Assembly (NCBI GenBank): GCA_024741835.1
Contig: JAENRP010000427.1
Location: 1-33,196, forward strand
DNA length: 33,196 nucleotides
Reading direction: 5' to 3'
Origin: Diplocarpon mali
Taxonomy: Eukaryota; Ascomycota; Leotiomycetes; Helotiales; Drepanopezizaceae
Under the pieces are notes generated by a model. The model ran no database searches, had not been told where the DNA came from, and saw only the letters and a program-made list of their open reading frames with translations. The position numbers were made by a program, and so were the translations under genes. How positions within the stretch are numbered: position 1 is the first letter of the stretch; the number at the start of each line of letters is the position of its first letter. Below are positions 1-33,196 of the stretch, one piece after another.

Positions 1-18
1 TAGGCCAGGCCTAGGAGT
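1..18. repeat. 23-bp palindrome, copy cut by window edge
   Basis: The right arm GGCCTAGGAGT (8-18), centre base A (7) and the last six bases of the left arm are present; the rest lies outside the window. It belongs to the dispersed 11-1-11 palindrome family described in the findings. Bases 19-95 beyond it are AT-rich and I see nothing else in them. Confidence 0.7.
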
Positions 19-420
19 TAGAAAACGAAATTAGCAAAATAAACAAATAAGCTATAGAGTTATAAAAATAATTAAAAATAGTACTAATTTAGATATTAAT
101 TTTCCTTAGTTCTTTTTAAGAGATAGGGAGAACTATTATTAGATAATACTCTTTTTATAAAGCGCCTACTTCTTTTTAATAGTTTACTATTAGTATTAGA
201 AGAGTCCGGTCTTAGTGTTATAAGAGCTTTAGTATTTCGTAAAGATGCTAGTATAGTTTGATGGCTTCTGCTAATAGGAAGAGAGACTTATATTATAACA
301 TTATTATTATTATCCTCTTTATTATTATTATTATCCTTTAAAGAGTCTTCTACTATAAAGGAGGATGAGGCAGGCAATTTAATAGATAATACTTCCTTTT
401 CTTTACCTTTAATTAATATA

Positions 421-443
421 AGTTGCGGGCTAGGCCTAGGAGT
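421..443. repeat. 23-bp palindrome copy in ORF B
   Basis: Arms AGTTGCGGGCT and GGCCTAGGAGT flank centre A. On the minus strand it is read in the ORF B frame as ITPRPSPQL, the same phase as the Copia-1 copies. It occupies the same place near the C-terminus as the copy at 19352-19374 in ORF A. Confidence 0.8.
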
Positions 444-1242
444 TATATTAGAGGGTTTAGTATAAGGTTTCTTAATGCTATACTTTTCGAAAAGGATCGT
501 CTTATTAATCATATTATTAGCCTTGATATTATTATTAGTACCTTTTGTCTTAGTCTAGGACTTATCCTTATATAGTTATAGCTTTAACTATTAAATCAGC
601 TTTTAAGTATAAGTAAAATTATTAAAAAGTTCCTACTTATACTTCTTTAAATATATTATCAACTGAGTTATATTTTTAGAAAATAACTCCTTTACTATTA
701 TTACTACTAATAGATCGTTCTATAGCTATTTCCTTATAAGTGCTTCTGATAATAGGCCTCCTTTTATTATACTAAGTATTATATGAAATTTGGCTAACGA
801 TTCTCTAGCAATACTCTATCTTATAGTGCTAGGTCTCTTTATACTAATAGAATCGATAAGAAAATCTTCTAGGTCTATGCCATTCTTTAATAAGTTATTA
901 CTAATAACTTCTATATAGTTATTACTAATAGTAAGAAAGCCACCTTTTCTTAATTCTTTAGCAGATTTTATATTAACGAATATGCCTTATTTAGTAAATA
1001 TAGAGAATAGAGTTATCTTATTAGAGATATACTCCTTTAGAAGTATCTTCTCTCTAGTGTTCAATTCTTTCTATTATACTACATTTTAAGCCAGATTTAG
1101 TAAGATCTATTAAGCATTCTTAAGGCGTTAGGGTATAAGATTTAATAATTCATAGGATTTTTCCTAAATAGCGAATTCTCCGGTCGATTATTTAGCTACT
1201 AAAATCATATAGTAGTTAATAGTTCTATTATTAGGTGGATTG

Positions 1243-1265
1243 ACCCGTAAGCTAGGCCTAATAGT
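1243..1265. repeat. 23-bp palindrome copy in ORF B
   Basis: Arms ACCCGTAAGCT and GGCCTAATAGT flank centre A, with outer TTG and CAA still visible. It is read in frame as LTIRPSLRV and sits at the position equivalent to the copy at 20237-20259 in ORF A. Confidence 0.75.
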
Positions 1266-2472
1266 CAATCTTATAAATCTTATATTAGTATTAATCTTAG
1301 TAGTAATAACTCTTAAGTAGTAGTTAATTTTAATAAACTATATAAGCTTAGGATATATCACTAGTTTATATAAAGACTTATATTAAGTTAGCAAAGCACT
1401 TAAGTATAATTTATAATATATCCTTAGTATCTATTATATTAAGCTATAAGTTATATTATAAAGGTAGGCAAAGGGGAGGTTTGACTTCTTATCTAAGGTC
1501 TAGAAGTAGTATCGGTACATTTCTAGTTCTTCTTATACTAATATTAAAAATGAATTCTTTCTATAATTACTATAATTATATATACGTATAGCACTTAAAA
1601 AGGCGCAGCTAAACAACTTAGGTATATTTAAAAAGCCTTTGCTATAGAATAATATAAAGTTATCAATAGTTAGTATAGCGTTATACTAGGCAGGGGTCTA
1701 TATAATATTATAAAACAATTTAAGGGCTTTAGGTGCCACTCTGAACTTAGAGAAGCCTAATAATACATTCTTCTTAACTTAGTTTACTATTCTATTGCTA
1801 ATAGCTATAATTCCATAATTTCCTAAATGCAATAAAAATAAGGTTAGGTCAAGAGCGGTGCAAAATTTATAAATATTAAACAATACATCTTTATTAGTAA
1901 GGCCTATTGTTGCCAATCTATAGTACTACGTATATTAGCATTTATAAAGGGCGTAGAACTTTTCAAAATTAAAGTCCTTAAATATTCCTATTATAAACTT
2001 TGCAAGTCTTGTCTTTATTTCTAGTATTACTACTATTTTAAAACTATTGCTATACTATAGTATTATCTTTATATTAAAGGGGACTTGATAATATTTTATA
2101 AAGATAATATTTGTATTAACTTTGGATTTCTCCTTAAGAATATAGAAGTCACCCTTTAATTTCTTATGCTTAATAAAGAATTATATAATATTATCTATAG
2201 AAAATTCGTCTTATAGCAGTTTTATAATCTGCTTAATAGCTCTTATCGTCCCTTCCTATACTAATAAGACTTCTCCTTAACCTTCTTTTCTTAAATGCTT
2301 TATTATTAACTTATAGAATTTAAGAACAAATTTTTATAGGTTATTAGGGAAAGATTGTATAATATTGGCGGTATCCTTCTTAGTATTATTAAAAATTTCT
2401 AGCATATTAGTAATAGTGCCTATTTCTTTATTAGATAATTCATCTTTTAAATCTATGATATTACGTATATTG

Positions 2473-2495
2473 ATCTATAAGCCGGGCCCGCAAGT
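2473..2495. repeat. 23-bp palindrome copy in ORF B, decayed left arm
   Basis: The right half GGCCCGCAAGT is clear; the left arm ATCTATAAGCC is degenerate. On the minus strand it reads MTCGPGL in the ORF B frame. Confidence 0.65.
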
Positions 2496-2658
2496 CATTT
2501 TCTTTACTATTAGTATTTAGGGTATTTAAGGCATTTCTAAGGATAGTGACTTAAATTCGTCTAAGTTAGAGGATTAGTAGTCAGGCAGGTTAGCTGCTTA
2601 AGTTCCTAGTATTATAGGCACCTCTGGCTTAGGGATATCCTCCTTATATGCTGATTCC

Positions 2659-2681
2659 ACTCGTAGGCCAGGCCTACGAGT
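2659..2681. repeat. 23-bp palindrome, perfect copy
   Basis: ACTCGTAGGCC, centre A, GGCCTACGAGT: all 11 base pairs match. It is read in the ORF B frame on the minus strand as LTRRPGLRV. It is the cleanest example of the family and fixes the 11-1-11 geometry. Confidence 0.9.
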
Positions 2682-3600
2682 CAAATTCTCCTTATTAGTT
2701 ATTCCTACTAAGGGTAGTAGCATTTTTAAGGTAATAGGGATAATAAACTCCTATCTTTTTAACTTATTATTAAAGTAATTTATAGTATACTTAGTAAGAT
2801 AAGTCATCTTTTCTTTTATAATAAGTAGACTATATTATAATTATTAGAGGCTAAGTATATTTAGAATAGTTTAGTTAGGAAGTGTAAAATTATTATACTA
2901 TAAGGATTCATCTTTTATAATCTGAATAGTAGAGTGTATAATAGTGCTTAAGAACCTAATAAATTTTCTACTTCTAATGCTATTTCCCTATAGCTTTTTT
3001 ATACCTTCTTAAATAGTGAAATGATTTAATACCTATATAGCCTTTGCTATAGGTTAGTATATCTTAAAGATTTTGCCAAGCCCCTGTAGGGCGTTATTAG
3101 TAGTAATATCAGTTATAAAGTAGGTTTGGAAAAGTGTACTATAAGTACTACTTATAAATTGCAATAATCTTTTTATATACTTATTCTTCTTATTTCAATT
3201 TTTCTAAAATAAATCCACTAAATTAGCATACTTTTAATATTCCTATAGAAATTTTTCACAATCGATCCCTTTTATCTTAAGCTTATTCTTAAGAAAATCA
3301 TCAAAGCTTAAAAATCCTTCTTCTATAATAGAAATTCTATAGTTTAACACTTTTATAAATGAGTTTAAGAATACTTACTATTTTATTTCACCTAATGTTC
3401 TATAAGTGCTTACTATATCTTCTAATGATCTTAGAGCTTTTCTATCTTATGAAAAGTTACCCTTTAATATTAGTTTATTATTAGCAGTGTTTAGGGGTTT
3501 GCTACCTAAAGCTACAACTGATATATTCTTCTTAAGTATAGCTCTCTTACTTAAGCTTAATAGTACTATAATGAATTATTTAATAGGAGGGGGGTAGTTC

Positions 3601-3853
3601 TAAATAAAGAGATGATTATTTAGAAAAGATTAACGATATAAGAGGCTTATATTAGAAAAGATTAATAACAAAAGACAATAGTGGTGGTACTGGTATTATA
3701 GGTCTGGTAGGGTTATAGAAAAAGTAAAAAAAGTAAAATCGTAGTGCAGGGAGAGGCTTATTTATAGAGTTTGAAATCGCGCTAGTATATAAAGGAAAAG
3801 TGGGTATAATAAGCTTAGAAGTAGGAATAAAAGTAGGGTATAACGCATATAAG
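3601..3853. other. spacer between Copia-2 and ORF B
   Basis: This is AT-rich sequence of the oldest layer. After removal of Copia-2 it joins 18901-19218 to form a spacer of about 570 bp between ORF A and ORF B. The ORF B frame can be read weakly upstream to about 3660, but without paralogue support. I see no promoter or other element. Confidence 0.5.
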
Positions 3854-3858
3854 GACCT
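3854..3858. repeat. target-site duplication of Copia-2 (left)
   Basis: GACCT precedes the left LTR and the same five bases follow the right LTR at 18896-18900. It proves one insertion event spanning 3859-18895. Confidence 0.92.
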
Positions 3859-4030
3859 TGTTGCGCCATGAGGAGCCTCAGGCACTGAGGCATCTAAGGA
3901 CTGGCTTATGTAATGTACCCCTGAAGTGGCCACGGAGCACTTCTATAAAGGGAGCTCAGATATACAGTTAGAGTAGAATTTTACAAGCTTCTGCTACTAC
4001 TGAGAATCCACTTCTAAATATAGCACGATA
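3859..4030 (+). repeat. Copia-2 5' LTR
   Basis: It begins TGTTGCGCC and ends CACGATA (CGACA in the partner copy, so CA has become TA). It is 172 bp, the same length as the 3' copy, and differs from it only by transitions in the parts compared. The sequence GTTATCAGCAC directly after it is the likely primer-binding site; I cannot assign the tRNA. Confidence 0.9.
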
Positions 4031-4192
4031 GTTATCAGCACTATTCGCAACTCTTAGAAGCAAACGATTAAAAATCTACTATGTTTAGAGACTTCTTAAA
4101 GAGGTTTTACTACTATTTTCATCTATTCTCCTTCGCCTATACGCATTATACAACCTGACTTAACGTTCTAACGCTCCTAGCCAATTAATACC

Positions 4193-7100
4193 ATACTCCC
4201 TACTATCCTAGTCAATATAAGCGAATACTAGTAAAAAGAAGCTTAAGAGCTTAGCTCTAGTAGAGTTATGCTCTAGGATAAGAAGTCATAGCGCATTTGG
4301 TACGCTAAGTTAGAGTTTTAAGCTGAATTTCTACGCCTTTAGAAGTATATAGAGAAGCTAAGATAGGTTAATAACCTTAAACTATATGCTATAGAGATAG
4401 GAAACCAAGCTCTGCTTTATAAGAATGAAGCTCTATATCTGCTAGATCTAGAAATAGAACTGCCGCAGCTTGAAAAAATTATAAAAGGACAGGACTAGAG
4501 AGTATTGCAAAGCTACTACAAGTTATACTAATAATAGGAAGCTACTAATCAATAAACGCCAGCTCTACTACTACTTGCAAAGATAATAGCTAAAGATATA
4601 GAGCTAGAGTATAAAATAGCAGTAACGCAATATAATCTTATAATAGAAATATAGAAAAGGAATAGAAGCTCCTATACTTAATTATACTATTAGATTACTA
4701 AGATAGTACACCTTATATTACTTTAAGTAGTATAATATAACTGTAAGGAAGCGGGGAAACTGTCAATTTAATAGATCGTAGAGCACCTGCGCAGGGAACT
4801 AGCCCCCTTTGAGGTTAGTATAATAGAGTCAATTCGGGAAGACTATAATACTAAGCTCTTTAAAATAAGGAGTAGTAAAGTGGACCTGAAGACCTGGCTT
4901 ACTAGCTTTAAGAAGATCTATTAGGAAGCTCGAACTTATAGAATCCCAAAGGTTTAAGGCTCCTTTGCGATTATAAAGTTTCTATAGTCGGTTTACCGCT
5001 AGGCTCCTACTTAGTCTTAGCAGACCTAAGCAGAGCTTATTAAAGATAATAAGCTAAGTCTAGAGTATAGAAAAGATATAGTCTACTATATTAATTAGTT
5101 CTTAAGCTTAATAGAGCGAAGCCTCGCAAGCTCTTTATTAAAGGCAACCCTTAGAGTATATGCCTCGCTTAAAGGAGTAGGCAATCATACTAATCTAAGA
5201 GCATTAAGTAAAGGCAAGGTAAAGAAGACTCTCAAGGGGAGCATTAAAAAGTACCCTTATCCTTAGGTTAAAAATTACTTTTAGAACCTAAAGGAGTGTA
5301 ATAGGCTGAAATACGCCTTAACTAGCACTAAGGAAGGTACGCTTTAAAACCTCCTTAGCTATAATAAGGTTAAAAGAATATATAAAAACCTTGCTTCCTT
5401 AGAATAGAGAGAGCTCTATACTAAGCTCTCTTATATTAAATAAGCTCTTATAAATCAATTTAAGGAAAGAACATCTGCTAAAGCTTTAAGGAGCGGCAAA
5501 TCCAAGATTATCGCCGCCCTCTTAAATCTAGCTCTCTTCGAAGACTTTACCTTAGGAATATACTCTACCCTTAAAGCTTCCTACGCTCTCTCGAATATAA
5601 CCCTACTTAACAACTGCGCTGCAACGCACCTTATTAATTAAGAGGAGCTTCTAATTCCTAGATTATTGAAAATCGCATATCCTTAGGACTATATAGAGGC
5701 AAGGAGCTTAAGTCTACTAATAAGGAAGAGGGGTATACGTCTGATAAAAGGGGTTCTTACCGATAGAGGAGACTTAGAGCTTAAGAATATAGCGCTTATA
5801 GATAGGTTTAATATTAATATTATTTTAAAGCCTCTTTTAAAGAAGGCTAGGGTATAGTATATAGGCCTAGATGCAACGCTTTAAAAGGGTATAGCAGATA
5901 ATAATATAGTTATAAAGCAGCTAGAGCGTAGGTCGAATGTTATAGTATTTAAATATAAGCCTATTAACTTTTATAATACTCCTAACTTACTATACTATGC
6001 TTAACTAACTTGCCTAGCCTTTCCTACTTTACAATAGCGTCTACGAAGCTAATATAAACCCCTAAGGAGCAGCGTATTCCTAAGAGCTAGGAATAATTCG
6101 GCAGATATTTAGCACCTTCAATTAGGCTATCTAAGAGCTAAGGCGCTCGAAAAGCTTATATTAAACGTAAGAGGGGTAAAGATTAAAGGGAAGCTATAAA
6201 TCAATTATAAAGCTTGCGCTTAGGCAAAAGCTAAGCAAAAGCCTTTTAGGAGAGAGTCAGATTTTAAGGCTTTAAGACCATTCTTTAAGTGCTCCTAGGA
6301 CCTATTTGACTATAGTATATTAAGCTTCTCCTTAGAAAGCTAGCTTCTCCTAATTAAGGATGAATTTAATAAGAAGTTATTTAAATATACTCTACTTTAT
6401 AAGTCCCTAATGCTAGTTCTAAGAGCTCTTTAATCTTTTAAAGTATAGGTAAAGTGCTATTATAGCCTCCCCCTATATATTCTAAAGAGCAATAACAATA
6501 CCTTAGTATTCCCTTTATAAGGAGCATCGAAATATAGAGAGTGGTGCAAAGCTAAAGGCATAGAGGTAGAAGTCACTCTATCTTATACTTATAAATTAAA
6601 TGGAGCTTCTGAGAGAGCAGGAGTAGAGATTATTAAAAAGGCACTTACTATACTAATCTTTGCTAACCTCTTAAAGTACCTATAGCCTAAAGCCGTACTA
6701 GCTGCAATATACCTTTATAATATTAGCCTATTAAAGCGCAAGGGATAAAAGAGTCTAAATGAGGTACTTTAGTTCTAATTTAGATAATACTTTAAGTAGT
6801 ATAATCCGCAGATTATTATAAAGCTTACTACCGATTTAAGACTAGAATAAGGGGATATAAAAGCATATAAAGCGCGCGTATACCTATTAGCAAAGGAGAG
6901 GGAAGCTCTAAAGAATAAGAGAGCTTTTAAAACCATACTATAAAGGCATATTAAATACTTAATTAATTACTACGCTATTAATATATATAGGATTTAGGTG
7001 TTTAAGCTTTAAAAGGTTATAATCTCTTGAAATATCGAATTCGATAAGTCTAAATTCTATTCTAAGGAGTATAAAAAGGTGGCTAGCCACCTACTCCCAA

Positions 7101-7558
7101 TTATTAAGGAGATTATGCAAATGATTAAAGAGGAGGAGGAAGAAGCTTAAGACGCTAAGTTAATTATCAAAAATGTAAAGGGAGCTCTGGATAAGCAGCC
7201 TATAGATAACCTAGTAAGAGGTAAGCCTATTAATCTTTTACTAATAGAAGCTTTAAGCTCAGATTTATCAAGGGCTCTTATCCCTTATAAGGCTACTTAT
7301 AGCATTTCTACTCTAGCTACTTAAGAGCAGCTGCCTAATAGCAAAGGGTTAGACGCTTTAAGATAACTATCAATAGTTAGGAAGAGTATCGAAAGCAATA
7401 TTATAAATGCCAGTTCTGCTAGGGAGCGCAATACCAGGCCTTTAGTTGCTATACAGACTAAGCAATCGTAAGGGCAGGAGCAGGCCCTTCAATTACTAGA
7501 AGCTCTATTATAGGCAACTAGTAAAGAAGTATGCTAGCTCTTATTAAAAGCACCGATT
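4193..7558 (+). pseudogene. Copia-2 gag-pol, N-terminal part (gag, protease, integrase)
   Basis: A plus-strand frame starts at ATA 4193 (ATG lost) and reads gag-like protein with many TAA/TAG stops. Protease is recognised at LLNNCAATHLI (about 5602-5640), where the expected catalytic Asp reads Asn. The gag-pre-integrase domain follows near 6115 (HLQLGYLRAKALEKL). The integrase core contains LLLIKDEFNKKLF (about 6345-6385) and NGASERAGVEIIKKAL (about 6600-6650), with the catalytic Glu in ASERAG. A variable linker leads to the break at 7558, where Gypsy-1 inserted at CGATT. The second half resumes at 15128. Integrase before RT places it in copia rather than gypsy. Confidence 0.82.
7554..7558. 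repeat. target-site duplication of Gypsy-1 (left)
   Basis: CGATT here corresponds to CGATC at 15123-15127 on the other side; the one difference is a C/T transition. Confidence 0.8.
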
Positions 7559-7865
7559 TGTAACGATACAGAACCGCCAAAGTGCGAGATCAAGTATAGG
7601 AGTAAGAAGTGGTGCAAAAGGCGTATTCTATAGGTCTAATACGAAGGAAACGAAGAAGTTAGAGAACCCTCCTTAGGGGAGAGCCCTTCTTCCTTATATA
7701 CATAGTAGCTAGGAGCTTTATTACCTGCTTATATGATATTATGCAAGAATATCCTTTTGCACCTTTAGGGTCGATTTAAGAAAACCCTATATCAAATCGA
7801 GATTGCGAAACCTTAGAACGCCGTACTCCTAGGTAATTGCACTAAGTGGAGGTGCAGCTATTATA
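7559..7865 (-). repeat. Gypsy-1 3' LTR
   Basis: It is 307 bp, plus-strand start TGTAACGATACAG, end ATTATA (originally probably GTTACA). It matches 14816-15122 in length and in sequence apart from transitions. The partner start reads TATAATAATATAG, each change a RIP-type transition. Confidence 0.9.
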
Positions 7866-7881
7866 CTACCTTTCCCCTTTG
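7866..7881 (-). other. Gypsy-1 polypurine tract
   Basis: Read on the minus strand the bases are AAAGGGGAAAGGTAG, ending at the LTR. A purine run directly upstream of the 3' LTR is where plus-strand DNA synthesis is primed in LTR elements. It confirms the minus orientation. Confidence 0.75.
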
Positions 7882-7883
7882 AG

Positions 7884-7903
7884 AACGCTTGCCTATAAGC
7901 GTT
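7884..7903. repeat. short inverted repeat next to the polypurine tract
   Basis: AACGCTT, six bases, AAGCGTT: a perfect 7-bp stem in the Gypsy-1 3' region. The stretch from 7904 to 8190 shows nothing further apart from a trinucleotide run of TAC/ACT near 8125-8145. Confidence 0.6.
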
Positions 7904-8190
7904 AGTAGGTTATAATGATTTTTATATAGTAATGTACTTAGCGCGTTATTATGCAAATAGTACTATTCTGTATTTGGTTTAGCGCAAGTCGCGTTATATA
8001 CTTAAATTTGTTTTTCCTTCTATAGGATCTTCCTTCCTTAGTATAATAACCGCATATAATCGTATAGGTCTCTTACTCCTACTACTATAGCGCAAGGCTA
8101 ATGCATAGTAGTAAAAACAATTACTACTACTACTACCAACTACTATAAGTAAGTTTGCCCTAGTCTAGGGTTAAATCGCGTCTAATATGC

Positions 8191-18895: not shown

Positions 18896-18900
18896 GACCT
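18896..18900. repeat. target-site duplication of Copia-2 (right)
   Basis: GACCT, identical to 3854-3858. Confidence 0.92.
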
Positions 18901-19218
18901 ACAATTGGTAAATGACAATTATCAAAGGTAAGGAAGACATTTCAAAGGTAAGCGTTAGAAAGTTGCATATAAAGGGAATAATTAAAGAATAAATCATATA
19001 AAGAGTAAAGTAAATAAAGAATATATATAAAATAGAATAATAGGTTGAGAATAAAGAGGTATAGGTATATAGAAAGTAGATAATCCTTAAAAAATTCAAC
19101 TTCTAATTTGCAATCTCTCCAAATGGTTTTTAAAGGAGAGGTAGTAGACTCGATTCTCTAGGCTTAAGTCGACTTAATTATTAGTTCTATTATCACTTTA
19201 GAGTCTTCTTCTCTTATA
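18901..19218. other. spacer between ORF A and Copia-2
   Basis: Very AT-rich sequence downstream of the ORF A stop. A 66-codon open stretch on the minus strand here is all Leu/Ile/Phe/Tyr/Ser and looks like a by-product of base composition. No gene is supported. Confidence 0.5.
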
Positions 19219-19351
19219 TTAGTTCTCACCTCTTAGCGATTTTTCTAATTCGGATATCTCTACTAAAGGAACCTCTATTTGTACCCCTAGGTTTGGTAGC
19301 TGAAGTTCATCCGAACTATCTCGTAGGCTAAAGCTAGCTAAGTCTAACCTT

Positions 19352-19374
19352 ACTCGCGGGCCAGGCTCGCGAGT
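19352..19374. repeat. 23-bp palindrome copy in ORF A
   Basis: ACTCGCGGGCC, centre A, GGCTCGCGAGT: 10 of 11 pairs match, the mismatch being a C-to-T type change. It is read as LTREPGPRV in the ORF A frame. Confidence 0.9.
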
Positions 19375-20236
19375 TAGTCTTGGCATTTCTAAGCTTAAGG
19401 GTAAAAATAGGGGATTGGTTCCCAAATTAGGGTCTAATACTATACTAGTATCTTAATTCGTTTCTTTTCCGAATTTTCTTGCAATAATGCCTTTATTAAT
19501 TAGTATATTAGGCTCTTAGATAGCATTTACTTTATCGCGCTATCCTTAAGACTTAAGTTTATAAAGAAGCGACTTAGTATTTATAACGTTCGTCTAGGCC
19601 TTAATAAGGGCATTAAAGAGTTTTTAATTATATTCTATAAGGTGGATTTTCAATTTATCCTTATTAAAAAGGAATAACTCTTATACTTTAATTATAATAG
19701 AAGGATCCATCTAAAAACGCTGACTAATAATAGCTTTAGAAAGGCTGCTGTAGTTTTTAAGATAAAAAGCTGCCTTAAAAGGTGCAAGGATTCTACTTAT
19801 ATTAATCTATTAAGGCACTAAAGGTTACTCTAAAGCAAAGATTGAAAAGATAAGATTGGAGATTCGAGTTTCATTTTCTAAGGTATTCTTATTGCAAATA
19901 GCTATATAATTATTGTAAAAGGCTATAAAGCTACTAATTTTATAAAGTTTATTTAAGCGTATTTTAAAAAGGTGCCCTTATTTCATTATCACTATAATAA
20001 GGTTACTATTATTAGTAATAGGTTGTAAGATCTCTTTTTACTTCATTTTTATAATTATATAAGCTAGCTGAGATTTTGAACCAAGTGCTTAAGAAGTCTA
20101 TCGACTTATCTTTTTCATAGATAGAGTAAGTTTTATATTCGATTAAGAGCCGACCTATTTATTAAGGCTTTTAAAAGCTGGCTCTTATCCGATTGGTAGG
20201 ATCTAATAATCTAAGACTTGCTTTTTAATAAAATTG

Positions 20237-20259
20237 ACTCGCGGGCCAGGACCGCAGGT
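20237..20259. repeat. 23-bp palindrome copy in ORF A
   Basis: ACTCGCGGGCC, centre A, GGACCGCAGGT, preceded by TTG. It is read as FTCGPGPRV on the minus strand in frame. Confidence 0.88.
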
Positions 20260-21021
20260 GAAAATCGGAATTTCTTTATTAATAGTACTTATATCCCTCT
20301 TTATTAAAACAACTTGATTATAAAGACTAAGGCCAATTAATTAAAGAGGTTTAAGATAGGCTATAAACTAATAGGCTCCTTTACTTTTCGCTATTATAAC
20401 TAAGAGGTAGAGTCTATAATATATCCGAAGGACTTATTAAGTAAGACTGAATATTATATTATAAAGAAAATAAGAAGGTATAGAAGTCGCGTTATCTATA
20501 GGGCAGAAGTAATAAAGGTATATTTCTACTTCTTATCTTATAATAGAGAGGAATATACCTATAAAAGCACTATTATTAATAGTAAAATTATCAGTTAAAA
20601 AGCGGCATTCAAAGGGTTTAAGTATTATAATTGACCCTTCTTCCTCTATTTCCTCTTGCTATTTATTACTTAATAATATTAAAAAGAAAGAATTATTCTA
20701 TTTAATCAGCTCTAACGCCTTTAAGGCTTTAGGATCAGCCCTAAATTTTATAGCACCTAAAGATGCCTTTATTATTAATAGGTTAGATTTGCATATCCTT
20801 AAAAAGATAAAGAACTAATTATTAAAGTAGATTAGAAAAAGATCAATATCTTCTACTATATAAAGAAGTTTAAGGTATTTAATAGTTTTATTAATATCAA
20901 ATCCTTTATAATTAAAACTATAGTAAACTAAAAGAGAGCGAATATAAAGGTTGCAAAGTCTTCTCCTTTTGATTTTTATATTAAAAAGATACTATTAAAA
21001 GCGAGTTTTTATTATAAAGGA

Positions 21022-21626: not shown

Positions 21627-24600
21627 ATAGCATCCGATTCCGATCGAAACACCAAGCCTAGAGACCTCCAACTCTCTCGGAAGAACTGGCAACGATAGTT
21701 CGACGATTTAGAGCTTTACTTCAAGAGCAAAGGCATTGAAATGGCGATTCAAAAGACACTTATTGAATACGCGAGAACAGCCCCCTATACTCCCTCCACC
21801 GATTCGTCTACTTCCACTTCAACAGCTAATACAACTGCTAAGGATTTGCCAGACATACTAAACAAGCTTAGCCTAAGAGCTTCAGTAGACAATAACCGAG
21901 AATCCCAAAGGCAGATTTTAAATGTGGAAAAGGAGAAGGAGTATAGGCTAGCCTCAGCCAAATGCAAGCTCAAGATCAACAGAGGTTTAAGCGACAAAGA
22001 CCGAGATTTTATTCGAGTTCACAATAACGCAAAGATAAGATAAGATACTTTAAAGGCAAAATACTCTCAGACAACTGCCCTCGACACCCAGCATCTGCTA
22101 TAGCAGATCACTTCATTTCAGTATAGAAAAGACAAAGATAGCAAGGATATAGATATAAATATAGACTCTACCTAGTCCATACTGCGTAAAGCGAGGAGGA
22201 GAGTAAGAGCCGCAGATCCTAGGATGGCTATAACTTTTAGGGAAACTCAGCTTTTTAGTTTCCTACTCAATGGCCTCCCTCCCAAGTTCGCCATCGCAAA
22301 ACAATCTCTTCTCGTCCAACCCAACCTTGAGATCTACAAGAAGATCGACCTCCTTCGAACTGTCGAGCAAGACCTCGAAGGACACTCTGAATCGGCAAAT
22401 GCTGCGTTATAGGGCAACGACAAGCCCGAGAAGAGGAAGGAGCGCGGGACGAGCCCTTGAGCTCATCAGGGATGCTACTTCTATAACGGTGCTCACAATA
22501 TTACTAATTGTAAAGTTAGAAGGCAACTGATCGACATAGTCGCCAGCTTTAATATCAAGAAGCAATCGAAGCAGAAGTCAAGAAGCAAACTGCCCTTATC
22601 CCACCGAAGGCCGCAACTACCAAGGAAAGGCAAAGGAAAAGGCTATTTAGCCAGAACTTTAGCAGACACCTCTAATAATAACAGTAGGTCATCTGAACCT
22701 GAATCCACTTCTGATAATTCAAACGATAATTATAATAAAGATGCCCACGTCTCAAAAGCCGATCTTCATAAGATCCCTAAATCCGACTGGTATAGTGACA
22801 CTAGTTATATAGCATATATAACTGACAAACCCCACCTATTTAAAGGCCCGCTTACCAAAATAAAAAGGCGCTCTATTAAGGTTGGTAGTAGAAGGTTGTA
22901 TGCGGACTCGATAGATATAGTAGAGATGAATATCGCTAGCATTTCTTTCCTTTTGCAAAATGTTCTCCTTATGCCTAGCCTAGGCATCAATCTCTTATCT
23001 AGCCGTAAGATCTATGCGGAATTGAATTATATTAGAGTTTTCAATAATCAATTCATATGGTTTATAAATAACAACTATAAAGTAATCTTTAAGGCTAAAA
23101 TCAAAGATGGACTTTACGTTATCTCAAAGGTGATATTATAGAAATTGACTCCTGGGCCGGACCTACGAGTGAATTCCTTTAAGGAAAGTGCACTCTCCGC
23201 CTTAACACAATTGAGCAAGGATAGGGAGAATAGATGGACTCCTAAGCCAGGATCGCAAGTAAAATTCGCGAAAATGACTCCTGAGCCGGGACCACAGGTA
23301 GATTGCAAGGTGTCCTCGAAGATGACTCCTAAGCCAGGATCACAAGTGAATTTGGCAGAAATGACTCCTGGGCCGGGACCGCGAGTGGATTCTGCAAATT
23401 CGCCAATAACGACTCTTTGGCCGGGATCGCAAGTGAAATTCGCGGAAATAACTCCTAGGCCGGGACCGCGAGTGAAATTCGCGAATTCGTCAGAAACGAC
23501 TCCTAAGCCGGGACCGCAAGTGGATCTCGCCATTTCCAGGAAATCGACTCCCGAGCCAGGACCGCGAGTGGATCTCGCGGTTTTACCAAAAACGACTCCT
23601 GAGCCGGGCTCGCAACTGGAAAACGGCAAAACCTCGAACTGCTATCACCAGTCCTTTCCAGCCGCTGACGACGAAGTATCGACTGACGACGGGCTACTAA
23701 AGCTGTCAGAAGCCGAAAGCCTGTCAAGGTATCAGCTAATGCATAGAAGATTCGCGCATCTAAGGCCAGAGAAATTGAGGGGCCTGCACAAGGTCTCGAC
23801 CCTAAAACGGAAGATCTAAGTACCGAAGGATCGCCCGGTATGCCGAATTTGCAAGCTGACAAAACTTCAAAATCGGACGCGAACTGAGCTCAGTCTATAG
23901 AAAGATTCGATACTAGCGCTAATATCCATCGACACTGCTGGACCATTCACGACCTCGATCAAAGGAAATAATTGGTTTTCTCAAATAGTGGATAACTCCA
24001 CTCGGCAGACATAGACCATTTGCGCTAGGACCAAATCTGAGCTTATAGAAAAGCTGGAAACTTAGAAAGTGATAGAGGAACGCCGGACCTAGTTAAAGCT
24101 AATAGCTATTAGGTCTGATAACGCATTAGAGATTAGGGCAAAGCTTAACGAATAAGTAAAATAAGGAGTTCGTTACAAACCAACTGTGATATATAAAGGT
24201 TCCTACTAGAATAGCATCGCCGAGCGAAGCATCTAGCAAGCAGAGACTGACTATCGCGCTCTACTGCGAGATACTGACCTACTACTGGAATTCTAGGACC
24301 TTGCGGTTAAGGCAGACGCATACCTGCAAAATAGAACGGGTAGTGGACCAATAGTCAATAGCACCTGAATATCGCCATATAAGGCATATTTCAAATAGAA
24401 ACTAAGCCTGGACCACATCCGCGTCTTTAGAAGCGTCTGCTACTCCTATATTAGCCCGAAGTCCTAGCCCGCGGGTATAAAGAGCAAAAAGCTAATGGAC
24501 CGAGGTAGAGAGTGTGTATTTGTTAGGTATATTAAATAGATAATAAAGCAATAGATAGTATACGCGCTAGATCTAGGGCAAGTAATCACATCCTTAGTAG

Positions 24601-26696
24601 TTGAGTTCGACGAATCTCGAAATAGGGGAGAGCTGTCCTTAAAGCTCTGCATACCTGGAGATTCGCAAGGTATACCACTCGACGGTAATACTATCAAGCT
24701 GAACCAACAACCCCTTTCTCTTAGCTCAGGCACATCAAGCGCACCTGCTGATCGACGACCAGCTAGTCGTCCAAAGGCCGAACAGACCATTCCTGTCGTC
24801 CGCGAACTGCCTAAAGTATAGAACAACTTCGATATTGTCGTCCCTTCAGTTAAAGCGCCTACGGTAAAGGATATTCCCGAAATAGGTACGAGTAACGATA
24901 AGCCTCTACCACTGGAAAGCGGTTCCTTAAATGATAAGCCTACGGAACCCACAGCCGAACCTACGTCCTTAAAGAGGAATAGAGACCTAGAACCGGAAGA
25001 CACCTTGGACGAACGCGAGTCTAAGCGTATCCGGGCCATAATAGCGCATAGGATCTACGAGCTCAAACTTTAATAGAGCTTCGACGAAGATAATGCGTTC
25101 CTAGCCACTAGGGGGATAATGAAAATCTCTCTTCTAAAGACATACGACGAAGCTATCAATAACCCAGAGAATGGAGCAGCATAGAGTAAGGCAATCCACA
25201 AAGAGATAAGCTCTCTTACTGCAAATGGCATATAGATAGAGGAACCGACGCCAAAAGACGTGAACCTAGTATCAATAAAGTGGGTCTTTACAATCAAGAC
25301 ATATGCAGATGGAACCCTAGAGCGTTATAAGGCAAGGCTTATAGCTAAGGGCTTCTCCCAATAGTATGGAGAAGACTACTTCGACACGTTCGCGCCGACA
25401 GTTCGCATAGACACCCTTCGCATATTTATAGCGATAGTAGCCGCTAAGGACCTTGAATGCAGACAGTATAATATCAAAAATGCATTTACCGAAGCGACTA
25501 TAAAGGAATGGATTTTTCTCTCCCGACCTAATAGTATCCCTATACGCGCTGGCCACTCTCTTCGTATACTCCGCAGTATCTATAGGCTCAAATAATCAGC
25601 CTGTAATTAGAACCTCTTATATAGCTCTGCTCTAATGGAAATGGGATTCGTTTAGAGCCTAGCTGACCCTTATCTGTTTACCTATACTAAGCGTGGAATC
25701 AAGTTGCTACTATATGTCGACGATATTACTGCAGCTGCGAAAACAACTACTTAATTGGATTAGTTCTTTATAACGATTCGGAAACGTTTTAATACTAAGG
25801 ATCTAGAGGGAATTCATAAGATCCTCGGCATTTGCATCACAAGGAACCGCTCCACTCGAGAACTCTGGTTAGATCAAGAGCAGTATATCAAGAAGATCCT
25901 AGACCGAATAGGACTCTCCACTCATGCTCCCAACTTTAAGCCAAAGCGTACTCCAATCGAAGGAAAGTATAATAAGTTAGAGCCTGCTAATGAAAATAAG
26001 CAAAGAGGAGATCTAAAGAAGTACTAATAGGATATTAGAGCGATTATGTATGCTATGGTATATATAAGACTAGATATCGCCTTTGTCACTAGGCAACTTA
26101 GTCAGAACCTAAAGGATCTGACGATTCGATACGAGAATGCAGTCAAGCGACTTGGAAGGTACCTTCGATCGACAATCATATAGAAGGTAAGATACAGACT
26201 AACGAAATATATAAGCGCAAAGCTCAAGGTATATACCGATTCCGACTGGGCAAATATAAAAGGTCAGAAAAGTATATCTGGAAGCGTAGCAGTGCTATAT
26301 GGCGGACCTATGTCGTAGGGAAGTAGGAAGCAGAAATCAGTAGCTACCGCAAGCACTAAGGCCGAATATATATTAATATTATTAAATTGCAAGTAAGGAT
26401 TGTAGATCATCTAAGTTCTAAAAGACATAGGTTTCGCTAAGTATATTAGATAAGATAGGAACTGTATTGACCTCTGAGCAGATAATACAAGGGCGATTGC
26501 ACTTATAAAGAATCCACACTTGTATAAGCGATCGAAACATATTAATATTGCCTACTACTTTATCCGCAACCTTATTGCAAAGAACAAGTTGTCGATCACC
26601 TATATCCTAACCGATCGAATAGTGGCAGATGGATTTACAAAGCTACTAGAGATAGTTGCAAAGTTCGAAGCGTTTAAAGACATGCTAGGGTTATAG
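21627..26696 (+). pseudogene. Copia-1 gag-pol polyprotein, RIP-inactivated
   Basis: One frame of 1,690 codons runs from ATA 21627 (lost ATG) to TAG 26694-26696; the stop could itself be a mutated Trp/Gln, the next being 26712. Gag ends in a zinc knuckle at 22473-22511, CYFYNGAHNITNC, whose second Cys is now Tyr. Protease is at SDTSYIAYITDKPHLF, with the catalytic D-T-G (22797-22805) changed to D-T-S. The repeat array 23148-23617 follows. Gag-pre-integrase is MHRRFAHLRPEKLRGLHKV (23739 on), with its zinc pair CRIC at 23841. The integrase triad is Asp 23931 (SIDTAGPF), Asp 24117 (IRSDNALEI), Glu 24222 (SIAERSI). RT has KWVFTIKTYADGTLERYKAR (about 25279) and an intact YVDDI at 25713. RNase H shows TDSDWA (26235), ASTKAEY (about 26350) and KRSKHINIAYYFIR (about 26525). 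Stops are nearly all TAA/TAG. Confidence 0.93.
23148..23617 (+). repeat. ten in-frame copies of the 23-bp palindrome in Copia-1 pol
   Basis: Copies start at 23148, 23238, 23277, 23325, 23364, 23412, 23451, 23499, 23547 and 23595. All start in the same codon phase and all are exactly 23 bp (11-1-11). Each codes for T-P-[GEK]-P-[GD]-[PSL]-[RQ]-V or a close variant, for example MTPGPGPRVD and STPEPGPRVD; the sixth and tenth are the most altered. Spacers are variable and multiples of three after adding one base to the unit. The array lies between protease and gag-pre-integrase, where copia elements do not normally have such a domain. The region has no stop for 225 codons because it contains few Gln/Trp codons in RIP contexts. 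Confidence 0.9.
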
Positions 26697-27016
26697 AAGA
26701 CAGTAGGGGCTTAGCAGGCTTAAGGACGACTCCTGGGCCCGCCCCGCAAGTCAGGTCACATGGTCTTATAGAGGAAAGTTTTTAGATCGACTCCTAGGCC
26801 CGGACCGCGAGTCAAGTCATATGGTCTTATAAAGGAACATCTTTTAGGAAATTTGACTCCCGGTCCCGCCTTGCGAGTAGGAATGGTGATTTTAATAGAG
26901 GTTGCTATTGATTGATTGTTTTTGATTTGGAGAGATACCTAGGAGTTAGATTAGCGCAAAAGGATAATTGTTATTTTCCCGACTGTAGGTCAATCGAAGT
27001 AAGGTCTGAGTAAGGG
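26697..27016 (+). repeat. Copia-1 3' untranslated region with three palindromes in tandem units
   Basis: Palindrome cores lie at 26729-26751, 26790-26812 and 26856-26878. The first two head a longer unit of 61 and 66 bp that also shares GTCA.GTCA.ATGGTCTTATA.AGGAA, so part of the region was duplicated. The purine-rich stretch GAAGTAAGGTCTGAGTAAGGG ends at 27016, next to the LTR, and is the likely polypurine tract. Confidence 0.8.
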
Positions 27017-27211
27017 TGTTAAGATGGGTGATACAGCTATCACTCCGATGTATTATCATATGACCCTACTGCTTAGTCAGTAGGATGTTAACACGTATAT
27101 AGCTATAGGGAAGAAAGGGGTAACCTTCCTTCCTTAACTCTTACCAATATATCGACTATCGACCTCTAGAAGTTTCCTATACCTACTGCGCCGACTCACT
27201 TAAGCTCAATA
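27017..27211 (+). repeat. Copia-1 3' LTR
   Basis: 195 bp, partner of 21027-21221, ending CTCAATA followed by CACTT. Confidence 0.95.
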
Positions 27212-27216
27212 CACTT
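27212..27216. repeat. target-site duplication of Copia-1 (right)
   Basis: CACTT, identical to 21022-21026. Confidence 0.92.
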
Positions 27217-28770
27217 GAATATTATATTATTCTTTAAGCTTAAGGTTGAGAATAACTGATTAAGGCACATTACTATAATTATAAATATCCTAATTAATAG
27301 ATTCCTCTTTACATTCTCTTTCTTATAAGATAAAATAGTCTCGCTTAGCATCTAAGAGATTAGGTTCTTAACTTCTATAATTATTAAAGAATTAAATAAT
27401 ATCTATAAGGGTAAACTTATTTAAGATAAGCTATTAAATCTATCTAATAGCTCTTTTAATTATCTTTAAAGCAATAGGAATAAGGTCTTCCCTTATATTA
27501 TCATTTCTAAAACGGTTATATATAGATATAAAGAAGTTAAGAACTAGCTCCTTTAAGTTATTAAAGAAGGAGTTTAAATAAGTATGCAATCCTTTAATTT
27601 TAAATTGCAAATCAGCTAAAATAGCTATTAAACGATCTATCCTTCTTAAAGGTTAAGCTAAAATAGGTCGTTTAGCTAAAGGAGAGTCCCTTAAAGATTC
27701 CGAAAATTCTAAAGAGGCTGCATTAAGCGTTTAAGCAGTTTGTTTAATAGCAGTTTCTAAAATCATTTTAATAAAAGGCAAGTTAAGTCTAGTTTTAAAA
27801 TTCTCATTTCTAACTCTTAGTTTAAGACCGCAAGTCAAATTATATAGTTTAACATTTATTATATCTTTAGATTAAGAAGCGAATTTTAAGGTAGGCTTAA
27901 TTATAAATAACCAATTCCCTTCTTTATTATTAAAGAAATCTCATTTAAACCTTAGTATAAGAGTCTAGTTCTCTTTTAAAATAAGTAAACTATAAGCAAA
28001 AGCGCAAAGCCTTAGCATATTAATAATAGTACTATTAAGTAAGGTAATATCTATAGCCTAATTTGATCTTTTTATAGCCCTATTAGCTACTATAAGTATT
28101 ATATTAAATAAGCTTATAAATCTGCGATTGCGAATTCGATTGCCTTGGAATTTTACTACTCTTTCTTAAATAATAAAGAAATTAAGAATCTATATAACTT
28201 TAGCTATAGGAGTATTTTCCTTAAGAATTTTTAATAATACTCGCCTTTTATTATTAGAATCAATATTTATTAAAAAGCGCAAACGAAATAGGAGTCCTCT
28301 CTTATTAATAGCTAAATTATCCAATTATTAAATAGATTCTTCCCTTTTATCTTAATCTATTTTGAAAGTATTAGCTAAGGTTATATATTAATTTACATTA
28401 GCTAAGAATTCCTCTTTAAAGATTCCCTTTAATCTTAATTCTTTAATTAAGAAGTTGTTAAATTAGAGAATTCCAAGGGCTACTTAGGTTAAAAGGTTAT
28501 TAATAGCATTCGTATAAGTTAAAAGGAGTTTTTATTACTCTATATCTCTTAAGGCTATATAGGTCGATTTGAAGTTCTTTAATAATATAATAGCTCTGCT
28601 ATCTTAAGAGAAGTTTATAATTAGTACTTATTTATCTCTTATTACTATAGATAAAACTATTTATAAGTTCTTTAAAGGTATATTACTTATAAAAGATAGG
28701 GAGTATAAATAAGAAAGTTCAATAGGATATAAGAATTAAAAGGGTATATAAGCTATAATAGGTTTACTAT
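27217..28770 (-). pseudogene. ORF A, N-terminal part: large protein of unknown function
   Basis: This is the first half of the minus-strand ORF A, in one frame down to the Copia-1 insertion and continuing at 21026. Similarity to ORF B starts around YPIELS (near 28720) and includes NFS*DSRAI (about 28600), NNFLIKELRLKGI (about 28445) and IAKVI*ILNFFII*E (about 28190), all at equivalent positions. Stops are only TAA/TAG with rare exceptions. A palindrome copy at 27813-27835 is read as LTCGLKLRV. The protein is rich in Leu/Ile/Lys/Asn, partly an effect of RIP on base composition. No known domain is recognised. No intact ATG marks the start; 28770 is an estimate from where the paralogue match fades. 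Confidence 0.7.
27813..27835. repeat. 23-bp palindrome copy in ORF A
   Basis: ACTCTTAGTTT, centre A, AGACCGCAAGT, followed by CAA. It is more decayed by C/T changes, but the 11-1-11 frame is kept and it reads LTCGLKLRV. Confidence 0.75.
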
Positions 28771-29077
28771 ATATATATTAAGGAAATTGGACTTTTTATT
28801 TATTATTTAAGGAAAGTAATAGGAATACTATAATTAAAGGCTAATATTAAAAATATAAAATAAGTTAGAGTAGGTAAGAATTTAAAGTGATCTTAAAAGA
28901 TCTATATCTTAAATAATAAAGAAGGCGACCTTGCTAAAAATGTAAAAATAAGGATTAAAAGAAGGTAGGATAATTAATAAGTTAAGAAATCGTTTAGTAT
29001 TTCCATTTATATTCTTTAAATATTTTAAGAATAATGACTTAAGGTTACGATTAGTTAGGTATTTTAATATTCTTTAC
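28771..29077. other. spacer between gypsy-2 pol end and ORF A
   Basis: AT-rich. It is short for a full LTR plus leader, although a small LTR cannot be excluded because the partner LTR would lie outside the window. No motif is recognised. Confidence 0.45.
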
Positions 29078-30510
29078 TTATAAGACCAGCTTATAGGTTA
29101 AGTTAGAAAAATCTTAGTCTTTATCTAAGGGTTCAAAATTGCTTATATTGCCGTCGGTTCTTATAGAAAATTCGGAGGTTATATCAATTTCTAATTCGTT
29201 TTCTAAAGGGAATAAGGTCTAGTCGTATTAATAAAAGCGCTTCAGTCGATTAGCTACAAAGGTTCCTTTAATATCGATTCTATTAAGTTCTTAAAGAGAA
29301 TAGTATCCCTTTTCTTTCTACTTAGACTTAACCTTAAATAGACTAAGCTATTAATAGTCAAGTTTAGTATCTACTAATATATTAATACTTCTTATAATAT
29401 TATAAACTAGGATAAGATCATCTTTTTAAATAGGGTGCATTTTAAGTACTTTAGAAGTAGCCTATACTTCCTTAGCTTTTTCCTAATATCATTTCTTTTA
29501 TAAAATGATTTCCTTTATATCTATATCTTAAAGCTTAAGTTATTAGTATCTTATTATAAGTAAATTAGAATGGTTTTAAATTTGACTATAATCGAACAAT
29601 CTTTAAATAAGCTATTAGGATTTAAGAAAGAGCTATACCTCTTCATTATAAATAAGGAAAAATAGTATAACTCTAATCGGTTTATAGATTATCGTTTAAT
29701 AAGTAAAGAGTATTTTATAAAAGTATTTTATCTAATTCTTAAATCCTTTATAAGTAACTTTAGATAGCTTATTAAGAATGTCGCAATATCCTTGCTCTAC
29801 TACTCTATTAGCTTTTAAGTTATATATTAAGATTTAAACCTGTTTAATACTATATTTTAATAAAAAAGCTTTAACTACTCCTTTATTTTTAAGGCCTTTA
29901 TTAATAGTTAGTCTGCTAAAAAGTCTATAGCAATAGACTACATCTTTCTAAAGGAACTTTGCAATAGATTCAAAGTTAGTAGATCTTAATAGTTATCCTT
30001 TAAGCTATTCTAATAGGTCTTCTTTTATTAGAATAAAATATATAATCCTATTTTCAATTATTAGTACTTATATAATATTAAAACTGACTTTATAAAAAAG
30101 GCCTAATAGCTAGGTTAAGAATAAGGGATTCTTTTTATAATTAGGTTTTCATTTTTAATAAAGGACGCAACTTTTCATAAAGGCTTTATAATCTTTAAAA
30201 GAACCCTTTTAAAAAAATTTCTTTAAGAGTCAGTAGTAGGTAGACTTAGCTCCTTAGTAGCCGGTCTCTTTATAAATATCTTAAATAGCCTTAGCTTATA
30301 GTTTTTCATTATTTAAGTAAAGTTATATAAGGAATAAGTTATCGCTCCTTTTAAATAATCGTCTTCTTTATATTAGATAAATTAGAGCTTTAGCTTTAAA
30401 TTTCTGAAAATCCTTAAGAGTAACTGTCTTTAGTTATCTAAGCATAATTAAAAACTTTGCGATTTCTTTAAAGTCACTTAAGTAGTCAGGTAATAAAATT
30501 CTCTCATTTG

Positions 30511-30533
30511 ACTTATAGGCTAGGCTTATAAGT
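30511..30533. repeat. 23-bp palindrome copy in gypsy-2 pol, different phase
   Basis: ACTTATAGGCT, centre A, GGCTTATAAGT: 10 of 11 pairs. It lies just before the integrase zinc finger. In the pol frame it reads RLISLAYKSN, so the usual T-x-x-P phase is not used here. Confidence 0.8.
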
Positions 30534-32477
30534 CGAATCCCTTTAAAGTAATATATTAATAGATAACTAACTTTGTTTTCTACCTACTTATCAATATCTA
30601 TTTTATCTTCTTTAATTAAATTAAAGGGGTAAGGCCAAGTTCTTCTTAAAAGGCTATCGGTAGTAGTATTTTATATTTTTAAAATATATTTGATTTTAAA
30701 GTCTATTAATCTTATTTAAGCAATTTATTTTATTAGCAAAGCTCTTAATAGGTCGCTTATAGCTCTATTCAATTATTCTACTAGCACTTTAATATTAGTT
30801 TTAAAGATAAAGTAAGTGCTATAAAAGTCGCTTCTTATCTTTTTCATCGCCTTTAAGGCGCCTTTACATTCCTACTTAATAGTATTATACTTTATTTCTA
30901 CTAGATTCTAAAGACCACTTTCAAAGTAAGCTAGATATCTTTTCTATTAGCTATTAGCTTATTAAAAGACAGCACCCTATTTAATTAAGCTTATATTAAC
31001 TATTAGTATAATTGGCCTAGCATTAGCTCTATAGTCTATTTTAATCAGATATAGCACTTTAAGCAACGCTTACTTCAATTGTTTTATAGCCTCTATTTAA
31101 GGTTCCTCCTACTAAAACTCAGCCCTTTTTCGAAATAAGGTATAAATAAGTACTACCTTTTTAGCGAAATCCTTAATCCAAATGCAATAGTATACTATAA
31201 TGCTAATAAACGCGTAAGCTTCTGCTATATTATTATACCTCTTCTATTTATCGATTTTAAGTACTTTAGCCCTTTAAGGACTTCAGCTATTAGAATCAGT
31301 AATAAAACTAACAATTTCTATTAATAGAAGATAGTATTATAACTTCGGACCAACTATTGCTTTTGCCCTTTCGAATTGTATAAGCACCTAATCTAAGTTC
31401 TAAATATATTCTATTATAAATCGTTATATACTAGAAAGAACTTCTTTATAATTATAAAATGATCTTAATCCTTTTACTCTTATATCGTCTATATAAGGGA
31501 GCGCAATATTAGGTATATAATCTACTAGTATCTTATAGATTACTTAAACAAATTAAGCGATCGAATTTATAGCCTCTTAAGGTAATCTTATTATTTAAAG
31601 TAGCTTAAAAGGGGTTTAAATTGCTATTATATCTTTCAATTTAATATTAAGAATAAATTAGTTATATTTAAAGAAGAAGTTAATAAGAGAGCTGTAGATT
31701 AATCTTACAAATTCATTTGAGAACTTATCTATATTCAAAGGAACGTTAGCATCCTTAATAATTACTCGGTTTATCTCTACTACTGCTATTATTAGTCTAT
31801 AAGTTCCCTTCTCTTTCTTAGCAATTAAGAACTATTTATTCCTATAAAGGCTATTATAAAACTCGAGAATACCTTGCTTTAGCTTATCCTTTAATATTTC
31901 GATTACCTTTTTTTAAAGAGCTTTAAAGACCTTAAATGTTTTCTCTTACTAGGCTTTATAGGGTATTATCTTAATCTTAATATAAGGCGTAACCTCTTCT
32001 TAAATCTGGCTAAGTTCCATTTAATTAAAAGCTAAGGCATCCTTTCGATTTATTAAAGTTTTATAAAGTAATTTGCGTTCTTACTCTATTAAGTCATCTT
32101 TAATTTTTAGCATATCGAAACGTTCTTTTATTAGCCGATATCCGATAGGTTTATTAGAAAATCTGCCTATAATAAACTTATCGAATTTACTACTTAACTT
32201 TAAAGGTCAAAGCTTCTTATCTTATTTAAACCAATCATCCAGTCCTTTAGGCTTTAAGCTATTAGAGATTCCCTAATCTACCAGTCGTACTTTATTAGCC
32301 TTGCTTTTATATATAGTTTAAATATTAGCTAATACTATACTTTTCTACTTCTTTCCTTTTTTATTAAATCCTATAAAACAGTCCGAATTTTCCTTTTTAA
32401 AAACAAATAAAAGATTTTCTAAGTCGTTAATTTAAAGTATATAAATAGAAATATTATTAGTAATTTTATTATTTTTC

Positions 32478-32500
32478 ACTCGCGGGTCCGGCCTATAAGT
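32478..32500. repeat. 23-bp palindrome copy in gypsy-2 pol
   Basis: ACTCGCGGGTC, centre C, GGCCTATAAGT. It is read on the minus strand as TYRPDPRV in the RT frame, in the linker between protease and RT. Confidence 0.8.
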
Positions 32501-32639
32501 AGTTTTTAGGTTTTTTAAAATAATTAGTAAATTGTCGAAATTTATAAAACGAACTCTCTTCTCTACTTTATTTTTCTTTTTTTTTAATTATTATTCTAAT
32601 AAAACGCCAATTGTACTATTTTTTAAAATTCCAGATTTG

Positions 32640-32662
32640 ACTCTTAGTCTAAGATTGCAAGT
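32640..32662. repeat. 23-bp palindrome copy in gypsy-2 pol
   Basis: ACTCTTAGTCT, centre A, AGATTGCAAGT with outer TTG and CAA. It is read as LTCNLRLRV in the RT frame. Confidence 0.78.
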
Positions 32663-33196
32663 CAAATTGCTATTATTCAAAATCGGCAAACTTACCTTTC
32701 TTTTACTATAACTCCTTACTAAGTGCCTTCCTTTACTAGCATTAAGCCTAGCCCTTATATTAGCTAATTGTTTCCTAAAACCTCATTTTAAAATTCGGCT
32801 ATATCTCCTGCGATAACCATTTATCCTTTTAAAGATCGATCTATATTCTAAAGACTAGCTTTTATAAGACTATCTTTAGGATAGTTAAATATTAGCTAAG
32901 ATTCTAAAATAAAAGGCATTCCTAAAAGAATATCATTCGAAGAATTCTCTATTATTAAAAAGTTAATATAATTAATAATTCCTTTAACTTTAACCTTTAC
33001 GTTTTTCACTTATCTATCAAAATTATATTTTAATTTAAAGATAGTCGAATAAATAAGGAGTCGATCGCTAATAATTATCAATTGAGCTATTTCTGCCACT
33101 TTTCTAATTATTATATTAACTTTTAAACTATAATCGATTAAAGCCTTTGCTTTAACTGATTCTTCTATTAAATAAATAATAATAGGGCTTTTTATT

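Follow-up and report, generated by a model that had tools for sequence, protein, structure and literature searches.

A symmetric 27-bp sequence unit shared by unrelated retrotransposons of the fungus Diplocarpon mali

The genome of the fungus Diplocarpon mali contains a short, GC-rich, dyad-symmetric sequence unit that recurs in unrelated transposable elements. It was noticed in a 33,196-bp contig (JAENRP010000427.1, C427 in our set; hereafter the window) and was followed here through the 49.37-Mb assembly of 676 contigs. The core, ACTC-N5-CC-N-GG-N5-GAGT, occurs at 940 genome sites compared with 3 in the reversed control, and its strictest form, with the GCG arms and the centre kept, at 240 forward and 231 reverse sites compared with none in the control. 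The carriers are two copia lineages (copia-A and copia-B), two gypsy lineages (gypsy-X and gypsy-2) and one unclassified repeat (element F), with the units at non-homologous positions, mostly in coding linkers between domains and also at copia 3′ ends. We tentatively interpret the unit as a symmetric protein-recognition site that retrotransposons have copied from one another through templated recombination and that constraint has preserved.

Shape and conservation of the unit

A pyrimidine (Y) at position −2 together with a purine (R) at +25 was found in 934 of the 940 sites, where about a quarter would be expected were those bases free; the unit therefore spans 27 bp, with shoulders reaching to about 35 bp. 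Its consensus is YN-ACTC(G/C)CGG(G/T)CC-N-GG(A/C)CCG(C/G)GAGT-NR, and the shoulders are weak and A/T-rich. An outer TTG...CAA, given as a common feature in the preliminary description of the window, is a minor one (27 of 940 sites), the common outer feature being the Y/R pair. The flank readings cover 159 distinct strict sites of the 940 (156 with the Y/R pair), picked by contig order and pattern class, so that large families are over-represented among them. Across 26 hand-picked flank contexts the outward flanks follow S-R-A-W-T-Y and fade by +30, the shoulder profile being symmetric, with R at +25 in 52 of 52 flanks, A at +26 in 35 and Y at +29 in 43. The core holds approximately 33 bits of information over background even after repeat-induced point mutation (RIP), in a sample in which copia-A units are over-represented.

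Unmutated half-sites lacking a partner showed no excess (12 in the genome vs 20 in the control), and derivation of the unit from the ends of a longer miniature inverted-repeat transposable element or DNA transposon was rejected on this count. A stricter pattern matched 13 stretches among bacteria and archaea and a single contig among viruses, with one site each, and a 33-base motif query against a phage collection gave weak matches only (best E 0.3).

In the window, which consists of nested, RIP-mutated elements with 35% GC, a RIP-tolerant pattern, in which Y stands for C and R for G, had 14 exact matches compared with 0 in 12 shuffles, 22 units with at most 1 mismatch compared with a mean of 0.42 per shuffle, and 30 compared with 6.25 at 2 mismatches. 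Scoring against the consensus of the preliminary description gave 22 positions with a score of at least 14/22, a few of which are clearly unrelated, and 0 to 2 per Markov shuffle in 10 shuffles. The dispersed family reported there is thus confirmed, with 22 units at up to 1 mismatch and a weaker copy at 1243. The earlier count of about 24 stands for the ten copies in copia pol, the three in the copia 3′ part, the three in gypsy-2 and the three in a reading frame called ORF A, whereas the frame called ORF B holds four rather than five; the absence of copies from the elements then named Copia-2 and Gypsy-1 also holds, with no match at up to 1 mismatch between 2682 and 19351. Two matching 11-bp arms in every copy were not recovered: of 23 window units, all 11 positions pair only at 2659 and 10 pair at 19352, and in the other 21 pairing is limited to 5 to 9 positions.

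The conserved part ends sharply. Between copia-A units (28 copies), purine/pyrimidine disagreement is 0.034 in the core, 0.15–0.19 in the six adjoining bases and 0.36–0.45, close to random, beyond, and over 878 unit pairs it is 0.038 vs 0.26–0.27. (Loci L031 and L050 were excluded from the copia-A unit-to-unit, arm-variation, transversion and RIP-retention comparisons.) When 202 sites from the window and the loci, copia-A loci L030–L059 excluded, were grouped into 47 flank clusters, many of them copia-A array units, the arms differed at position 5 (C/G) in 29 clusters and at position 9 (G/T) in 28, which argues that the two halves are read separately and that arm pairing is not the kept property. 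A perfect hairpin as the property under conservation is not supported, the arms varying unmatched and pairing mostly at 5 to 9 positions in the window. This pattern fits the footprint of a dimer better than a hairpin. The CGG-N7-CCG within it resembles fungal Zn2Cys6 sites.

Protection of the motif from RIP was rejected: CpG column pairs retain CG in 0.39 of cases inside the motif (n = 24) and 0.54 outside (n = 115), single C is retained in 0.80 vs 0.75, and single G in 0.72 vs 0.74. The GC-rich islands of the preliminary description are accordingly GC-rich words in AT-rich, RIP-made DNA, but not protected ones.

Carrier elements and placement

Of the 26 flank contexts, 22 lie within many-copy elements, and the one that was followed up among the remaining four ("G" contexts) recurs in three loci. 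Open frames run through the units in gag and linkers, and units in coding DNA point either way. Where Pfam gave no match, domain borders were placed by eye.

copia-A (RVT_2; Pol_BBD weak and under the cut-off; presumably also a GAG-pre-integrase-like region downstream of the array) usually carries 7 to 10 units in a pol linker and three 3′ of pol; locus L031 has three units above the threshold. Units stand at matching places in 29 of 30 loci read, and the remaining copy, L050 (G000:C94), diverges approximately ten bases ahead of the first array palindrome. The window copy has a ten-unit array in pol at 23148..23617 (starts 23148, 23238, 23277, 23325, 23364, 23412, 23451, 23499, 23547, and 23595), with spacings that are all multiples of 3. 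Its units 3′ of pol lie at 26729..26751 (one mismatch; present in L046 too), 26790..26812 (RIP-tolerant match) and 26856..26878 (one mismatch). A protein search with the array piece returned none at E ≤0.01 among 940 candidates, and the reverse transcriptase (RT) region had no match among plasmids. The second copia lineage, copia-B (SH3_retrovirus, weaker in one search), bears two gag units, another two to four past the integrase region and, judged by distance, one further unit 3′ of pol.

In gypsy-X (RVT_1, Integrase_H2C2) units lie in gag and in two linkers, protease–RT and RNase H–integrase; a protein search with the L102 frame returned none at E ≤0.01 among 680 candidates. gypsy-2, without a Pfam match and named by eye from its translation, has three units in the window: at 30511..30533 in the RNase H–integrase linker in phase 1 (RIP-tolerant match, with translation and copies read), at 32478..32500 in the upstream part of the reading frame (RIP-tolerant match, with translation), and a RIP-degraded one at 32640..32662 that matches the RIP-tolerant pattern exactly. 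A protein search with the gypsy-2 frame of locus L081 kept 2 of 11 candidates. One element piece is 70 and 67% identical to two Diplocarpon coronariae proteins, a likeness which by itself, from one protein piece, would place the host among the leotiomycetes, probably close to that species or within it; the gypsy-2 linker site is present in both matching proteins. Solved structures searched with L081 yielded nothing useful.

Element F, unclassified and without a Pfam match, has seven units and is broken up in the window by nested insertions into pieces at 1-3200, 18900-20990 and 27212-28200 (252 first-look candidates in the genome search). Four units, those of the former ORF B, lie at 421..443 (one mismatch; distance to 1243 as in locus L155), 1243..1265 (weak, two mismatches, with a matching place in L155 at 5097, a better match, and in L069), 2473..2495 (one mismatch; 186 bp to 2659, as in L155) and 2659..2681, a perfect 11-1-11 palindrome (40 best copies of 2520-2820 without net length change; unit in 5 of 5 copies read). 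The others, of the former ORF A, lie at 19352..19374 (10 of 11 arm pairs; unit in 10 of 10 copies read), 20237..20259 (one mismatch) and, past the copia-A insertion, 27813..27835 (matching place in L011:115). Because the window spacings of 822, 1230, 186, and 885 bp recur exactly in L155, ORF A and ORF B belong to a single element rather than being separate carriers. The two unit groups are 1650 bp apart in L155 and 1644 and 1640 bp apart at C1 and C7. Positions 1-6201 of L155 have long open pieces on one strand, with the units in one frame and 40% GC, and element F may be a large protein-coding transposon. An additional context, L080, also without a Pfam match, has at least 40 copies.

Three direct-repeat pairs in the window resemble long terminal repeat (LTR) pairs: an outer one at 3850-4031/18715-18896 (88% alike), a middle one at 7561-7860/14818-15117 (91%) and that of copia-A at 21027-21221/27017-27211 (94%). 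Read as LTRs of nested elements, they would place element F first, followed by the element of the outer pair, which encloses that of the middle pair, and copia-A as a separate insertion. Scans for tRNA genes and Rfam families across the window gave no match.

Origin of the unit and competing explanations

Bases 7–16 of the spacers between array units were compared in register and shifted. The copia-A array and the protease–RT array of gypsy-X agree in register (mean 4.73, maximum 9/10) compared with a shifted mean of 2.40, and V-K-[SF]-A-N-S is encoded past the core by part of the units in each array. The agreement in register points to exchange between superfamilies and favours the view that a stretch extending beyond the palindrome itself was copied between copia and gypsy, a conclusion that rests on one lineage pair.

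Under the recognition-site interpretation, the unit would be bound by a putative dimeric DNA-binding protein, encoded by the host or by an element, whose footprint would be the constant part. New places would be reached by templated copying, either through RT template switching between co-packaged RNAs or through patch repair; in coding DNA the unit would be tolerated within variable inter-domain linkers in a harmless frame, and each family would then have amplified from a source already bearing it. Several observations weigh against this interpretation. No protein binding the unit is known, and none was searched for. Regulatory sites are commoner in LTRs, and the sites here lie in coding linkers and 3′ ends, not in LTRs. 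The other two lineage pairs show no agreement of spacers (copia-A/copia-B 2.19 vs 2.51 shifted; gypsy-X/copia-B 2.65 vs 2.55 shifted). Only 17 of the 940 sites have C at the fifth position of both arms, so that the halves are not fully independent, although founder families may explain this. Transversions in copia-A affect 2 of 184 motif columns vs 49 of 1717 outer flank columns, a weak contrast. Finally, a similar flank profile would be expected from the target preference of an inserting unit.

This last point is why the main rival, a mobile palindrome, keeps a real if limited probability. The unit would be short and hairpin-forming, inserting independently at each place, preferably into a symmetric target meeting at Y-N/N-R, and surviving where the frame is kept, much as is thought of the palindromic elements of Rickettsia and the GC clusters of yeast mitochondria. 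The sharp edges and unrelated flanks, the occurrence of both orientations in coding DNA, the symmetric shoulder profile and the kept frame in linkers all suit it. The copies examined, however, contain no empty site. Genome searches with single stretches scored the best 40 of 231–1174 first-look candidates, and the 40 best rows (query included) for 19250-20340, 30400-30640, 2520-2820, and L080 keep the query length, apart from two rows for the first stretch that are 9 and 2 bp shorter. All 20 copies picked by flank contain the unit ungapped, with 6 transversions in the flanks and none in the units, and the gypsy-X gag site is present in 7 of 7 aligned copies (L074, L102, L156, L157, L158, L161, and L163). 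No target duplication was seen by eye in the flanks read; the sequence TGATTTT flanks the copia-B 3′ unit on either side, but no other unit. The contexts that were covered, one G context included, were moreover found in repeated DNA, which together with the lack of empty sites is hard to reconcile with a unit that inserts freely into DNA of any kind.

Also at odds with a mobile palindrome, unit number changes by whole units with their spacers: in the copia-A array, in copia-B (2 to 4), and in the gypsy-X protease–RT (1 to 3) and RNase H–integrase (1 to 2) linkers. Apparent gaps between copies fall in arrays, where unit number differs. The only smaller change is a unit 15 bp shorter in 4 of 7 gypsy-X copies (L154, L013, L022, and L162) compared with L160, L164, and L073; in L154 (3416-3470) and the other three, an 8-base remnant follows the last full protease–RT unit where relatives have a full unit, an in-frame difference of 15 bp that falls within a palindrome.

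The preliminary description had proposed a small mobile or templated unit, on the grounds of fixed length, dispersal and occurrence in both a copia and a gypsy lineage. The fixed core length is borne out, as are sharp edges, a spread over unrelated copia, gypsy and other non-homologous contexts, and frame-keeping placement, and the motif is not confined to homologous places of one lineage, since several lineages carry it. The genome scan proposed there gave the 940 sites, but the comparison of occupied with empty sites gave no empty site, the unit standing at a homologous place in the copies covered of the families examined. The templated half of the proposal gains from the in-register spacers, seen in one of three lineage pairs, and autonomous movement does not, for want of an empty site. 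It is conceivable, if rather doubtful, that the unit is a parasite of parasites, that is, a gene-less nuclear unit of 27–35 bp that passes, probably in the course of reverse transcription, among transposable elements such as copia and gypsy, leaves their frames intact and multiplies with its carriers.

Separate origin of a protein-binding site in each element, through point mutations favoured by selection and without copying, is improbable. The footprint arguments apply to it just as they do to the recognition site spread by copying, but a core of about 33 bits is much to ask of many independent origins, and the copia-A/gypsy-X spacer similarity also speaks against it.

Still more improbable is that selection acted on the encoded peptide, a repeat of the form T[PR]xPGPxV, as a linker or protease site of the polyproteins. 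By hand count, 14 of 16 hand-picked coding contexts (the copia-A array, copia-B gag twice and after integrase, three each of gypsy-X and gypsy-2, L080, and five of element F) are in phase 0 and read T[PR]xPGPxV, and the sites lie between domains. The frame bias has a p near 4e-5 by hand calculation if the contexts are independent, which they are not fully, and RIP tends to close phase 2; the count omits two element F sites and the G contexts, where the frame is unclear, and in clusters 9 and 24 of those phase 2 is a longest frame. Two contexts, however, the gypsy-2 RNase H–integrase linker (L081) and L080, are in phase 1, units also lie 3′ of copia-A pol, and the Y/R bases and the dyad are features of DNA. 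An origin by chance, or as a side effect of RIP acting on GC-rich repeats, has next to no probability and was rejected: RIP does generate recurrent CTAG and GTAG variants of the motif, but not 940 sites vs 3 in the control or 22 vs 0.42 in shuffles.

Relation to known systems and implications

No published description of the unit was found in the literature searched (titles, abstracts and passages), and the available passages of PMC11527701 and PMC5628827 do not describe it; the motif letters and the peptide used as literature queries returned unrelated subjects only. The unit resembles known kinds of repeat, yet it lacks a defining feature of each named family that was compared. Rickettsia palindromic elements are dispersed palindromic repeats that lie in reading frames without destroying them and occupy the same locus in orthologs (PMC3767692). 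The likeness extends to the open gag and linker frames here, but those elements are 100–150 bp long and reside in bacterial host genes, whereas a 27-bp core in nuclear transposable elements is seen here, and shared sequence stops about 6 bases past the 23-bp core. Yeast mitochondrial GC clusters such as GC42 are likewise GC-rich palindromic words in AT-rich DNA and have been proposed to be mobile (PMC4478555). Unlike the units within copia and gypsy elements, they are mitochondrial and 42 bp long, with short flanking direct repeats and presence or absence among strains, neither of which was found here (flanks judged by eye).

PARCEL repeats are dyad-symmetric coding repeats in arrays, associated with mobile elements in some taxa (PMC2996958); arrays of dyad-symmetric coding repeats are common to both, but PARCEL is a 25-residue amphipathic protein repeat, whereas the unit spans about 8 residues, also occurs untranslated and is read in two frames. 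The GalEa Conserved Hairpin Site is, similarly, a palindrome conserved in fungal copia elements (PMC5445492), but it consists of 9 bp and a partner directly after the 5′ LTR, is restricted to GalEa and has other letters, whereas copia-A units lie in pol and 3′ of it.

The gypsy retrotransposon of Drosophila reportedly carries an array of a long host-protein binding site, that of Su(Hw). That array is non-palindromic and confined to the 5′ region of one element, and its protein is known, whereas the protein here is putative.

Copia and gypsy elements replicate apart, yet they share a long symmetric word at non-homologous places, which points to either sequence exchange or strong common selection between the superfamilies. 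Should the unit be a protein site, it would lead to a factor recruited by many elements or recognising them; should it be mobile, it would be a nuclear mobile palindrome whose carriers are transposons. The 27-bp pattern is specific enough for scanning any fungal genome. Collectively, more than 900 copies across unrelated elements suggest that a common DNA tag, probably a protein-binding site, has been handed from one of these elements to another.

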